From Boletus sp. NGJ (lineage: Eukaryota; Basidiomycota; Agaricomycetes; Boletales; Boletaceae), in contig JAGTXK010000226.1 in NCBI GenBank assembly GCA_019096195.1, positions 124,001 through 188,000 on the forward strand: 64,000 bases of DNA, read 5' to 3'. Below the pieces are notes generated by a model that ran no database searches, was not told where the DNA came from, and saw only the letters and a program-made list of their open reading frames with translations. The translations under genes were made by a program, and so were the position numbers. Within the stretch, counting starts at the first letter, position 1; each line of letters starts with the position of its first letter. This document shows, one piece after another, positions 7,601 through 15,319 of this stretch.

Positions 7601-9970
7601 GGACATCAGAACTACGCTGACGTGCTCATTGAATTCCCAGGCTTCTCCGTACCATTGCATCCCGGGTACGCGATGAGGTGGATGCAACCTCGAATGTTCA
7701 TCGCCCAAACACAGCGATCGAACTAGGCCGGAATAACACAAATCTGAAGACCGTAGCCATTTTACCTGTATCTCGACATATACCAATTGACACATTCGCA
7801 CGGAAGCTCAAGGCAGCATTGGAAGAGATGGGTGTTAGAACATCTTATCTCAACCAAGCTTCCGTTTCGGGGCACCTCGGACGGCATACCTTCTCCAGAA
7901 TGGGAAAACTCAAGGCTGCGGCGTGGCTGGCTGATCAAGAACAGAGATATCATACCGTACTCTATGTTGCTGATTCACCCGTCAATAGCCCCTGGACGCA
8001 AACATGTATTCGACAGGTAGGCACAGTTCATCGGTTCAGAACACGCTGCTCACGCTTTTAGGCGGATTTCGTTATGGTTGTTGGTATGGGGGATGACCCG
8101 AGCATCGGGGAATATGAACGCCTCTTATTCTCCATGAAGACTACCGCTCGGAAGGAGCTTGTACTACTCCACCCAGAACGATCGGTTGCCCCTGGATTAA
8201 CAAGGGAGTGGCTCAAGGTCAGTACATCCGAAGTCTAGGATGCCAAACCTCCCCACACAACGTATTATACAGAATCGACCATGGGTTCATCAACACACCC
8301 ATGTCGAACTGCCGGTGGGTGCTATATCACCGTGCGTCGCGGAGTCTTAATTATCCAAAAAATCAGGGTCTTGTCTTGCCCCTGGCCAAGGCATCTCCCC
8401 CACAAGACCCTCAAGCGGTCGTTGCATTCAAGAACCTGAAGGATAAAGTGCAGAATGGCATTCAAAGGTACAGAGGCGTGCGAGCACATGCACGCCCTCA
8501 ACGTCACCCCATGGTCAACGATTTTTCGCGACTAGCCAGGAAGCTTTGTGGTAAATCAGTCGGCGTTGTGCTTGGGGGCGGTGGTGCGCGTGGGTTGTCG
8601 CACATCGTAAGTGAACGTGTTACCATCTCCATGGAGATGCTAATTTTGACTTCCTCGTGCCTCAGGGTGTCATCCGGGCCTTGGAGGAACGAGGCGTTCC
8701 AATCGACTACATTGCCGGAACAAGTATAGGGTCTTTCATTGCTGGCCTTTATGCACGCGACTGTGACATAATCCTCAGTGCAAGTCGGGCAAAGCAGTTT
8801 AGCAGCCGAATGGGCAATATCTGGAGAATGCTATCTGATGTCACTTATCCGCTAGTGGCATACACGACGGTAGGTGTTTTCATACTGAAGACAAGACTCT
8901 GGATAATTCTTCGAGCAGGGACACGAGTTTAACCGCACGATATACAAGGTAAATAACTGCACTCCTCCACGAAGCCATGCTAAGCTATCTCAGGCTTTCT
9001 ACGATCTTCACATTGAGGACATGTGGCTCCCATACTATTGCAATACGACCAACATTATGACGTCGCGTATGGAGATACATGAGACTGGTTATGCTTGGAG
9101 ATTTATCCGTACGTTACCATGCTCCGTGTATGCTATCCCCTCATACCATTATTTCATCAGGTGCATCCATGACTCTGGTTGGCTTGTTGCCCCCATTGTG
9201 TGACAATGGTAGCATGCTCGTTGATGGCGGCTATCGTAGGTTTTCCATTCTATTCTTCTTCGTGCTCGGCTGACCTGGTTTTTCGCGGCTAGTTGACAAC
9301 CTACCTGTAAGTGATGAGAGTCGCGTTCCCAGGCTACTGTGACCCTTTCTTGGACCAGGTATCGACCATGTTCTCCATGGGAGCGAGTGTTGTCATTGCA
9401 GCGGACGTTGGTTCCGTAAGTCACCCTCTCACGTCGAAACTGCACTTGTACCTCATTCCACGCCGCAGATTGAAGACAACTCACCTCGAAACTTTGGCGA
9501 TTCGTTGTCGGGATGGTGGCTCGTCCTGAACAGATGGAATCCTTTCTCGAGCGTGCACAACATACCGGCGATACCCGAGATACAGAGTCGATTGGCATAG
9601 TGAGTTTTTTTTCTTTTCGTCACGTTCTCTTACACGGGATGAACTTCCGTTCAGTGTATCGAGCGTCCGGACGCTTGAAGAAGCCAAAGTCACTCGTGGA
9701 TGTTTGTATATGCAGATGCCGGTTCAGGAGGTAAGCGAGCGTTTATGACGCAGGGTCGACGATGCAATGTATTCATCCGTTCGACAGTATGGTACCCTTC
9801 AGTTCGGCAAGTACGACGAGATCGCGAAGAAGGGGTATCAGGCGGCAGTCGAGATACTGGACCAGTGGGAAGATGAAGGGAAGCTGCCGAGCCTGACCAT
9901 CGACGGCCCGAATGCAGAGAAGGGTAAAGCTGCGAGGAAGGGAAGGAGCGCGAGACGGAATTCGGTATAA
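4639..9970 (+). CDS. NTE1: Lysophospholipase NTE1 (patatin, cNMP-binding domains)
   Basis: An ER-bound serine esterase of the neuropathy-target-esterase family that deacylates phosphatidylcholine and lysophosphatidylcholine to glycerophosphocholine. The start at 4639 gives [12 protein letters not shown]. An exon-intron series then yields two N-terminal membrane segments ([20 protein letters not shown] and [15 protein letters not shown]). Cyclic-nucleotide-binding-like domains follow at about 5210-5880, 6660-7200 and 7235-7520; the last contains [12 protein letters not shown] and [10 protein letters not shown]. The patatin domain shows the oxyanion motif GGGGARG at about 8575, the nucleophile elbow GTSIGS at about 8718 and the Asp-Gly-Gly of the catalytic dyad at about 9222. 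The stop follows RSARRNSV at 9970. About 18 introns are needed for a product near 1,450 residues. All catalytic elements are present. Confidence 0.93.
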
Positions 9971-10435: not shown

Positions 10436-12628
10436 TTATTGAACAACATGCTTATGGAAACTCAACAACAATAGCGCATCCTCGATTTTTACACCGGAAT
10501 ACGTCACAGCGTCCACACTCAAGTCGTAATCGCTGGAACCATTGACGGGCGCCATTCCGACGGCCTTTCTGAATTCCTGGAAGGCGGACGACGGCTCAAC
10601 GAGGCCCATGTCCATGGGCTCCATTCCGTCAGGGACAGGAGGATGCGACCTTGACCGTTTGTTGGGGGGTGGTGATGATGATACGTCAGTAAATGGGGTC
10701 ACAGCTTCTTGGTATTCCTCCTCGCTCCGCTCATCCATCTCCTGATCCACGATATCCTCGCAGACAAGGTCCATGGTGTCGTCGTCGTCGTACACGGAAG
10801 ATCCAGATGAGGCATCGTGTTCGTGGGGATTGGTACTGGCAGCGGAAGCTCCTGGGCGCTTTCTGCGCTTGCGAGCGTTCTGGCGAACATTGCGGAACCA
10901 ATTCGTCACCCTGCCAATATCCCTAGAAAATGATCAGCGAGTCGTTCTGAGACTGTTAGTGATACACTCACATGCCAATCTCTAATGCGAGCGCACTTCG
11001 CTCTTCTATTGAAGGCGTCAACGTCCGATGGAGCAGTTTCTTGAGTGCATCAAGCTGATGAGGTTCTGGACGAGACCGCCGAGGACGTGAAAGTCCATCC
11101 TCGGTCCTGGTGCCCTCACTACTGTTATCGTAGTGTCGACCTTCATCGATGTGAAGGTCCCTCGGATCCCTAGCGTAGGGTAGGATACTTCTTCGTATTC
11201 GGGGAGAAGACACCCGAGAACTTAATGAAGGAGGCAGTGACATTCTACTCCGAGGGGTAGAAACTTCGCGGAAGCCATCGCCCCCGGCGGACGAGAGTTT
11301 CAATGAAGCAGCACGAGAATCGTGTTCAGGGATCATTAATGAAGGGTGGTGGGATCGAGGTGGGAGAGGAGGGTGAGACACGTGTGATGATAACAAGGCA
11401 TCAGCAGGGTGTCGCTGCGCCGGATGTGCAGAAACATCTGGGGTAGAGGAAGACTCTTCTCTGTGCTTCTTTGCTTGACTGCGTTGGTTCTGAAACCAAT
11501 TGGTGACGCTTTGCAAACGCCTAGGCGAGAGCACCTCAGCTCCACAAACAAGGAGCGTGTGCAAGAAGACATACATGCCAATTCTGTCCGCAAGTTGCTG
11601 TCTATACTGGCGCGTGGGATGGTCATTAATAGCATAAGCACGACGGAGTACCTCTGCCTGTTCTGGGGACGTGCGCATTCTTGCTACCTCGTTGCGACCC
11701 CTCCGGGACGGAAGACCATCATTCTCGGACACGAAACGGCTATCCGTATCGGGCAGCATGTGGTCCGAGTCAGCATTATGTAAGGGAGGCACAGCCCCCG
11801 TTTCGGGATCATGCCCACGATGGTGGGATAATATGAAGCGATCCTGACTAAAGAACTCGGATGGACCAGCGAAAAATGAACTCTCGAGAACAGGTTCTTG
11901 TACATTGTTTTGGCTGTGGGACACATTAACGTGGGGGTCGGCGAGAATATGGTCATTGAGATGCAGATCCTTCTGTCTGGATCTGCGAGTGGATGAGGCA
12001 TGAGAGCGAGGACGTGATGAGTGCTGTGAGAGCTGTGCTGCGGGGACAGGGGGAGTGGAATTAAGCAGGTTTGGTATTGAGGGCAGATTGGATGGGAGTG
12101 GTTGTTTGGACGATTTTTCCGGTGGTACCGAATCGTTTGTAGCGGAAGTTGAATGTTCGACTGGGGATGTCTTGTTTCGCTTCTTGGTGGAGGCACGCTT
12201 GTTTTGAAACCAAGCATTGACTGTCTTGGTCTCCCTGGATGATTGTGACGATGGGACGTCCAGGGAATGGTACCCGACTTGATAAGAAGGCAGGCATGGC
12301 CAAAAGAGGGTACTTACATTCCAAGCCTCTCAGCGAGCTCGGTGCGCTCCTCCAGGCTAGGGTGCTCATTTCTGTCAAATAGTTCGTTGAGGGCGGCTAG
12401 CTGTACTGGACTGTGGCGATGACGAGGTTTCTTGGAAGAGGTCTTGTCTGGGTTGTCAGGGTCATGTGGCTTGTCAGACCTCCTGGTAGATGGCTTTTCC
12501 TCCTCGACAGACGGTCTGTCGTCGTCCACATCGAATGCGGTGCTGTAGGGAGGAGGAGATGGGGGAGACCTGTGATGTAGGGACTTTTTTGCGGTGTGAG
12601 GCGAGGAGGGAATTTTGTGCCGGTCCAT
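10436..12628 (-). CDS. Triple-homeodomain protein
   Basis: A predicted 668-residue nuclear protein with three separate homeodomains, at about residues 66-125, 281-345 and 468-528. Recognition helices read VNAWFQNKRASTKKR, VTNWFQNQRSQAKKHR and VTNWFRNVRQNARKRRK, so the WF-N core is kept in all three while the fourth and sixth positions vary. Linkers are Ser/Pro-rich, and the C-terminus is acidic (DDDDTMDLVCEDIVDQEMDE), as in activation regions. Removing just three introns leaves a reading frame without stops. Each intron splits the Met codon that follows helix 2 (Met 104, 324, 507), always in phase 2. The start at 12628 (MDRHK) was chosen; the open frame extends upstream to about 12700. DNA targets are unknown. 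Confidence 0.85.
10923..10971 (-). other. Phase-2 intron in homeobox 3
   Basis: A 49-base intron with donor GTGAGT and acceptor CTAG. It splits the Met codon at the end of helix 2 in homeodomain 3, between EIGM and DIGRVTNW. Confidence 0.8.
11521..11574 (-). other. Phase-2 intron in homeobox 2
   Basis: A 54-base intron with donor GTATGT and acceptor CCTAG. It splits the Met codon between RIGM and RLQSVTNW. It has no in-frame stop and is a multiple of three, so retention would add 18 residues inside the homeodomain without shifting the frame. Confidence 0.8.
12235..12317 (-). other. Phase-2 intron in homeobox 1
   Basis: An 83-base intron with donor GTAAGT and acceptor CCAG. It splits the Met codon between RLGM and ETKTVNAW, the same place as in homeoboxes 2 and 3. 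Confidence 0.8.
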
Positions 12629-13368: not shown

Positions 13369-15319
13369 TTACGAGCAATTGACTGTCGGCGATCCCCCTT
13401 GCATTGTCTCCGCGTCAATGTTCTTGATCCATGCACCGATTGCGCCTCTGCACAAGTGTCAATCTGAATGTGAATCGCACCAAGGACAGCCACAACGGAC
13501 GCACAAGAAACCTTCATGTCTCAGAAAGAGTGCGCGCTTCCTACCCTTGCTCCAGAACCGTATAGCATACGAAAGGGTGGTGATAGTAGTCGCATGTCCT
13601 ACAACGACATGAGCCCACCGACACACCCACAGTAATCGAAACGCACCGCGAATAAAACATCCCCCAAAGTAGATCCTGTCCAAGCCGTACTTCTCCGCGT
13701 TCATGTATCTAGATACCGGGCCCGTCAGAGAATCCCAAACGAGGTCCATGAACAGCCACCACGAACGCAATTTGTCCAATGTTGTTCGACACTGCATAAA
13801 GCAGACTCCTGCTAAGGTCTTCTGCCTTGAACGTCCCGCGTTCACAACCGTCTTTCCCCTCGCCGGTATGCTTAAAGACTTTGCCAAACGAGCTCGCGAT
13901 CGTCGTCGATTTAAGGCCGAGCTTGGTGTAGTCCGTCCCGTAGATATCTCCGACAAGCATGTCTACCGTTGCATTATCCCCCTTTTCTGACAGAGCCAAC
14001 ATCTCTGCCAAGCAAAATGAAGCCCGGTCGGCAAGCAATCAGAGATAAGCATTACTTACCATCAAACGTTCGGGCAGGCGTAAGCAGGCTTAGCAAACCC
14101 CACAAGGTACCGCCACCCAAACTCGTTCCACTCACACGCTCAAATGTGCCATCTGCATCGACCTTGATGATGGATACCCCTGATCCGATGTTGACGAGCA
14201 AACACGGAAGATGTGCCGAAGGCTCCCCACTCTCAAACGTGACCGTATACTTTGGCGGATTGGGCGATGGACGTTCAAGCGCAGCCTGATTGGCAGATGT
14301 CGAGGACGTCGTCCCGCCAGCATCCGCTGTACATTTTGTGATACCTGGGTGGGAGAATTCCGAGATGAGCTCGTCCGAAAAGTAGTACACCTCCTCTGGG
14401 ATCATGGCCATGAACTTCATCCCTTCGATCAGGCACTCCATTTCATCCTCGCGCCGAAATTCGACCAAAAGTTCCTTCTCAAACAGCTCCCCAAATTTGT
14501 GCGCCCCCCCTCCGGTCGCCATGATGTTGACCCCCCGGCGCATCTCCTCAATGGAGACGCCATTGGCAATAGCAGAGCGGCTTATGAGCTCGGAAATGAA
14601 CGTGATAAGGCCGGATATATTGGAGGTCTCGAAGCGCTCAAAGTTGATGGAACCACCAGGGATGTGATGGACTCGCGTTGTGCGCTGGAGGATCGTGGAG
14701 CGCAGCAGGTCGGTGTCAAGAGTATCGTAATTGCCATTCACATGTGACTCGAGAACGAGGGGGGTGAGAGTGCCGTTACGTGTGTGAGAGGAACTTGGAG
14801 GAATGGGCGGCGAACGTGACGGGACTGGGCTTGAGAATGGCGAGCCTGCACTCGAGCTGGGGAGACTGCTCGGTTCAGAGGAGCTACCTTGGGTCGCAAC
14901 AATGGACGGTGAAGGTGGCACCTCGGGTGAACGAGTGAAATAGACTACTTTGGCAAGGGAGCCCCCAATCTAGAAACAACAAAGATCAAAGTTCGCGGGT
15001 ACGACGACGACGGGGAAGTGAACGCACGTCGACAGCGATATGAGAGACTGGTTCGATGTAGTTTGGAAGGTATATTCCTCTACTGTCTCGCGTCTTCAAT
15101 AAGGCACCTATCAGGGAGCCGAACCGAGACCATTCAAGCAACACGCACTTCAGGGGATTCCTCTGCTAGAATGACGGCGCCTCTGGTATTGACATGGATG
15201 ACCTTTGGGGTGGGCAAGGGTGGGGCTGGCATGGCCGAGGATGCTGAGCTTGCCGCTGCGGTCCTGTATTTGGGGTCCCGGCAATGACTCGCGGAGTGCA
15301 GTGGATTTGTCACCGCCAT
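13369..15319 (-). CDS. Pantothenate kinase (eukaryotic type II PanK)
   Basis: Catalyses ATP-dependent phosphorylation of pantothenate, the first step of coenzyme A synthesis, in the cytosol. Key blocks in order: RGIYLPNYIEPVSHIAVD, then across an intron IGGSLAKVVYFTRSPE (nucleotide-binding start of the fold); INFERFETSNISGLITFI; IMATGGGAHKFGELFEKEL; LLVNIGSGVSIIKVDADG; RVSGTSLGGGTLWGLLSLL; GDIYGTDYTKLGLKSTTIAS; SRSLLYAVSNNIGQIAY; and the C-terminal LFLRHEGFLGAIGAW. A low-complexity Ser/Pro insert follows the first block. The stop TAA is at 13369. The start is uncertain: ATGs at 15319 and 15232 are in frame. The first intron fits best with an unusual donor (GTGTTG), or the N-terminal exon is read differently. 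Confidence 0.88.

Follow-up and report, generated by a model that had tools for sequence, protein, structure and literature searches.

A bolete gene encoding three homeodomains with a shared intron position, and its possible origin from tandem single-homeobox genes

INTRODUCTION

A gene in the Boletus sp. NGJ window (the whole stretch of DNA that was analyzed, 64,000 nucleotides, within contig C45) raises the question of how a fungal protein could have come to carry three homeodomains, each split by an intron at the same place. Fungi usually have less than a dozen homeobox genes, according to excerpts of a review (PMC4901127). The original prediction was that an intron-bearing homeobox had been duplicated repeatedly inside a single gene. 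Here, the gene was rebuilt, its domains were compared with the other homeodomains of the genome, and the possible origins were weighed.

RESULTS AND DISCUSSION

One reading frame connects the three homeodomains

The rebuilt gene model comprises four exons and three introns, as follows.

10436..12628, minus strand: whole gene, with the ATG at 12628 and the stop ending at 10436; four exons, 668 amino acids, three homeodomains
12318..12628, minus strand: exon 1, N-terminus and front of homeodomain 1 (HD1) up to position 40
12235..12317, minus strand: intron 1, 83 bp, phase 2 in Met104
11575..12234, minus strand: exon 2, back of HD1, linker, and front of homeodomain 2 (HD2)
11521..11574, minus strand: intron 2, 54 bp, phase 2 in Met324, without an in-frame stop if retained
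10972..11520, minus strand: exon 3, back of HD2, linker, and front of homeodomain 3 (HD3)
10923..10971, minus strand: intron 3, 49 bp, phase 2 in Met507
10436..10922, minus strand: exon 4, back of HD3, acidic stretch, C-terminus, and stop (gene model and charge scan)

All three introns have GT..AG borders, and each cuts a Met codon after the second base. With W48 as the numbering anchor, Met104, Met324, and Met507 correspond to homeodomain position 40 in all three domains. Thus, the claim of an identical phase-2 intron in these codons was borne out, as was, by this model together with Pfam, that of a single 668-residue protein with three homeodomains.

In mononucleotide shuffles (n = 5000), exons 1, 2, 3, and 4 were open in 145, 2, 0, and 3 cases, respectively, and all four were jointly open in 0/5000, so the exon frame is not a product of chance. 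One gene is the simplest reading because exons 2 and 3 each start within one homeodomain and end within the following one. The single-transcript reading is drawn from sequence, and contig C130 offers an example of neighboring single-homeobox genes in tandem, which would suit a misreading of two or three separate neighboring genes as one. However, the internal exons are single open frames that bridge two homeodomains, the spliced frame contains no stop between the domains, and the shuffles never reproduced the joint frame. Separate genes were rejected because each internal exon covers parts of two domains in one frame, and we regard them as very improbable. A single transcript across 12628-10436 is a strong inference.

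An open frame (12329-10968, minus strand) runs through intron 2. The 54 nt of this intron are divisible by three, and its retention would lengthen HD2 by 18 residues at the junction of helices 2 and 3. An intron 2-retaining isoform with a broken HD2 could thus be produced.

The gene is flanked, one on either side, by pieces of two other genes found as profile matches, both of which are possible synteny anchors.

8615-8932, plus strand: patatin-like phospholipase piece (PF01734)
14052-14969, minus strand: Fumble/pantothenate kinase piece (PF03630)

Features of the three homeodomains

Pfam placed three PF00046 stretches in the 668-residue protein, with an E value of 4.8e-42 for the whole protein.

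12180..12433, minus strand: HD1, residues 66-122, with A47, Q50, N51, and A54; split by intron 1
11460..11690, minus strand: HD2, residues 286-344, with N47, Q50, N51, and S54; split by intron 2
10862..11087, minus strand: HD3, residues 469-527, with N47, R50, N51, and Q54; split by intron 3

When scored singly, the spliced HD1, HD2, and HD3 reached 68.7, 55.2, and 45.0 bits against a curated PF00046 cutoff of 22.9, covering 57, 55, and 57 of the 57 model positions. In an unspliced six-frame profile search, HD1 gave 36.8 bits (model positions 1-39) and HD2 gave 26.5 bits (model positions 3-39), and HD3 was absent at E ≤ 0.001. Since the unspliced matches were partial or missing, it is the splices that complete the homeodomains.

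The recognition helices read WFQNKR in HD1, WFQNQR in HD2, and WFRNVR in HD3, as claimed. R5, W48, F49, N51, and R53, which are DNA-contact and core residues of homeodomains, are kept in all three domains. The residues at positions 47, 50, and 54, which tune the bases read beside the core, differ among them (A/Q/A in HD1, N/Q/S in HD2, and N/R/Q in HD3). HD1 and HD2 are separated by 161 residues and HD2 and HD3 by 124. The most acidic 40-residue stretch lies at residues 540-579, with a net charge of -16 in a charge scan. Pfam at E ≤ 1 found no zinc fingers in the protein, and an NCBIfam search gave nothing near the cutoff.

TALE homeodomains are marked by a three-residue insertion in the loop that joins helix 1 to helix 2 (excerpts of PMC3360767). 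Membership in this class was rejected: HD1 to HD3 align without internal gaps to the non-TALE rows, and for each of them the PF00046 score is well above that of PF05920.

The position-40 intron marks a family of four genes

The genome searched was a 32.8-Mb assembly of 141 contigs. Profile searches of the contigs placed PF00046 at 12 sites and PF05920 at 7, with three common to both, and HD3 was added by its own sequence. At least 17 homeodomains in about 15 genes were detected in this way. A phase-2 intron at position 40 is present in 6/17 of these homeodomains and is common to 4/15 genes, the carriers being HD1, HD2, and HD3 together with three single-homeodomain genes, C130A, C130B, and C11. 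Their introns lie at 121023-120975 (C130A, 49 bp), 119763-119689 (C130B, 75 bp), and 59344-59210 (C11, 135 bp), and in each case the joined sequence is a full homeodomain.

None of the other 11 of the 17 detected homeodomains has the position-40 intron. Introns were located near position 52 in C129, in the W48 codon in C3, and after position 46 in C107, positions given by our own reading; the GT..AG borders and lengths of these introns were verified. Four HD2-type mating-like genes stay open across a Met40 codon and on to W48, and the profile matches of three HD1-type mating-like genes and of the TALE gene C35 are contiguous across the position-40 region.

A Met at position 40 occurs in 9/9 aligned homeodomains, those of C129, C3, and C107 included. 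Each domain therefore offers a similar local site, as would be expected if introns had been gained independently at one place, for example with the Met codon as a favored insertion site. On the other hand, C129, C3, and C107 have Met40 and no intron there, the four HD2-type mating-like genes remain open through the same codon, and six identical gains in four genes are less simple than inheritance. Independent gain is thus extremely unlikely. Judged by its distribution, the position-40 intron is a marker of a homeobox family in this genome.

C130A and C130B are arranged in tandem at C130:117500-123000, head to tail in the same orientation. The stop of C130A is followed by the first Met of the C130B frame after 320 bp and by a later Met after 428 bp. 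C130A, C130B, and C11 resemble HD1 to HD3 in carrying the identical phase-2 intron, and 20-28/59 homeodomain residues are identical between the two sets. They differ in having one homeodomain each and a LEWAC motif (located after the homeodomain in C130A and C130B, and read by eye in C11), which was not found in the three-homeodomain protein.

Contigs C130 (68000-77000) and C132 (1000-10000) both carry HD1- and HD2-type homeodomains that we take, by their features, to be those of mating-type genes. C132 is a short contig (11.9 kb) and may represent another haplotype or an additional sublocus. A mating-type identity was rejected for the three-homeodomain gene, which lies on C45, as the presumed mating-type homeodomains are on C130 and C132.

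Relationships among the domains

Inside the three-homeodomain gene, identity is 23/59 between HD1 and HD2, 25/59 between HD1 and HD3, and 22/59 between HD2 and HD3. Identity to C130A is slightly higher, at 26/59, 27/59, and 28/59 for HD1, HD2, and HD3, respectively, and both HD2 and HD3 have their highest identity to C130A. For HD1, the highest identity is to C3 (28/59), the gene whose intron sits at W48.

A first tree was built from 10 of the 17 homeodomains, with three HD2-type mating-like domains, the three HD1-type domains, and the TALE domain left out. For a second set, the remaining long mating-like row was also left out, and the nine rows were analyzed under two models. All trees rest on 59 columns; the 10-row tree has no starred branch, and the 9-row trees have no branch at ≥ 95. 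The groups {HD2, HD3} and {HD2, HD3, C130A} were defined post hoc, once the first tree was known.

In the 10-row tree, a constraint uniting HD1 to HD3 lowered the likelihood by 6.73 log units (AU p 0.118), and in the 9-row trees their monophyly gave AU p values of 0.24 and 0.057 under the two models. Both best 9-row trees grouped HD2 and HD3 with C130A (support 74/82 and 64/75), and C11 and C130B joined next, which brought five of the six intron-bearing domains together and left HD1 elsewhere. A clade of all six was absent from the best trees but was not rejected, with AU p values of 0.439 (10 rows) and 0.37 and 0.306 (9 rows). On the question of a tree of the three domains, then, these data neither support nor reject the monophyly of HD1 to HD3; in the best 9-row trees HD2 and HD3 fall with C130A, and HD1 falls elsewhere.

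Six comparisons among linkers and termini and three upstream comparisons gave no significant similarity, the best score being reached in 228/1000 shuffles. Linker or unit similarity was accordingly rejected as a trace of duplication. The C-terminal tail showed marginal similarity to C130A and C130B (scores reached in 138/5000 and 196/5000 shuffles) and none to C11 (2116/5000), all for stretches chosen by eye. This likeness was dropped as support, being an eye-based resemblance with weak shuffle results. A pattern scan of viral contigs for relatives returned five pattern matches and no relative.

Origin of the three domains

Descent of HD1, HD2, and HD3 from an intron-bearing homeobox is supported by the shared intron, and this part of the original prediction stands. 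The placing of the duplications within the gene does not follow: the position-40 intron cannot show duplication inside one gene because three single-homeodomain genes have it too, and that inference goes further than a shared intron allows. The data are explained at least equally well if single-homeobox genes lying in tandem were joined.

Two copying events of an intron-bearing homeobox inside one gene, with rapid divergence of the domains afterward, would be a possible history, although we give it less than an even chance. The identical site and phase of the introns in HD1, HD2, and HD3 agree with it, and the monophyly of the three domains was not rejected in any of the tests above. Yet the same intron occurs in three single-domain genes, identity inside the gene (22-25/59) is no higher than that to C130A (26-28/59), the linkers lack significant similarity, and C130A is placed with HD2 and HD3 in both best 9-row trees.

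We consider it somewhat probable that the three-homeodomain transcription factor arose by tandem duplication of a single-homeobox gene, after which neighbors were joined into one reading frame. A single-homeobox member with the position-40 intron would first have been duplicated in tandem, and neighboring copies would then have been joined, by analogy with what was proposed for the mammalian DUX genes. The presence of the intron in C130A, C130B, and C11 and in none of the 11 others speaks for joining, as do the head-to-tail arrangement of C130A and C130B and the proximity of HD2 and HD3 to C130A, both by identity and in the best 9-row trees. Several observations speak against it. The trees are weak and do not separate joining from within-gene duplication. 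HD1 does not group with the remaining five intron-bearing domains in either of the best 9-row trees, and its best identity is to C3. In addition, the linkers have no significant mutual similarity and show no trace of former gene ends, the LEWAC motif of C130A and C130B is missing from the three-homeodomain protein, and the similarity of the C-terminal tail is marginal (C130A and C130B) or absent (C11).

Comparison with known multi-homeodomain proteins

Like the protein described here, members of the mammalian DUX family (DUXA, DUXB, DUXC, Duxbl, and DUX4) carry several homeodomains. According to excerpts of PMC3004920, the homeoboxes of intron-containing DUX members are split at equivalent positions, sDUX, a relative with a single homeobox, has an intron at the equivalent location, and an origin of DUX by the joining of tandem copies was proposed. 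The intron likeness concerns equivalent sites among DUX members. DUX proteins have two homeodomains, whereas the fungal protein has three on linkers of 161 and 124 residues. The best solved-structure matches of HD1, the one domain searched, were DUX4 chains (6e8c, E value of 5.5e-14); this match covers the homeodomain only and likely reflects general homeodomain similarity. We infer that the fungal gene and DUX are of independent origin.

The animal ZFHX and ZHX proteins also combine multiple homeodomains in a single polypeptide: ZHX has five of them plus two zinc fingers (excerpts of PMC2893186), and Zfhx2 has three homeobox domains with 18 zinc fingers (excerpts of PMC3534046). In contrast to these, the fungal protein gave no zinc finger in Pfam at E ≤ 1. 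Among mushroom-forming fungi, Hom1 and Hom2 of Schizophyllum commune are homeodomain regulators that act in fruiting and growth, as stated in excerpts of PMC5428507. The likeness drawn here is that of homeodomain regulators in a mushroom-forming fungus.

The phrases two, three, or multiple homeodomains are absent from the accessible portion of the review of fungal homeobox genes (PMC4901127). No fungal multi-homeodomain protein appeared among the matches listed from excerpts of the open-licence literature, a scope that mostly leaves subscription journals outside, or in the available passages of PMC3360767, PMC3998117, PMC6529522, PMC11121360, PMC11508405, PMC6596325, and PMC3438059. Where "double homeobox" or "three homeobox" occurs in passages of fungal papers (PMC3360767, PMC6596325, and PMC3438059), double mutants or gene numbers are meant. 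This lack of described examples is weak evidence that fungi have none, and databases may contain annotated ones.

Proposed function and wider meaning

The protein is a predicted transcription factor with long linkers between its domains and an acidic stretch after them. DNA binding is most likely because R5, W48, F49, N51, and R53 are retained in all three domains. The domains may work as separate beads on their linkers, and the protein would most likely bind as many as three A/T-rich half-sites whose spacing can vary; the reading of a composite DNA site is plausible. Residues 540-579 fit an acidic activation region, through which the protein would activate transcription. DNA binding and activation, like any developmental role of the protein, are predictions.

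On a reading that we rate as less probable than not, the gene would be a fungal counterpart of DUX that arose independently in mushroom-type fungi by the joining of tandem intron-bearing homeobox genes and whose product reads a composite site. If so, domains with A47/Q50, N47/Q50, and N47/R50 would together read a site beyond any single-homeodomain protein there.

A shared intron position among repeated domains is not in itself proof of duplication within a gene. Multi-homeodomain proteins are known from animals, and the three-domain fungal gene is a variant of that kind. The four-gene family to which it belongs includes a tandem pair (C130A and C130B) of a kind that could be an intermediate. 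With an intron that marks the family, the gene is a compact example in which the gain of DNA-binding domains by a regulator can be put to the test.
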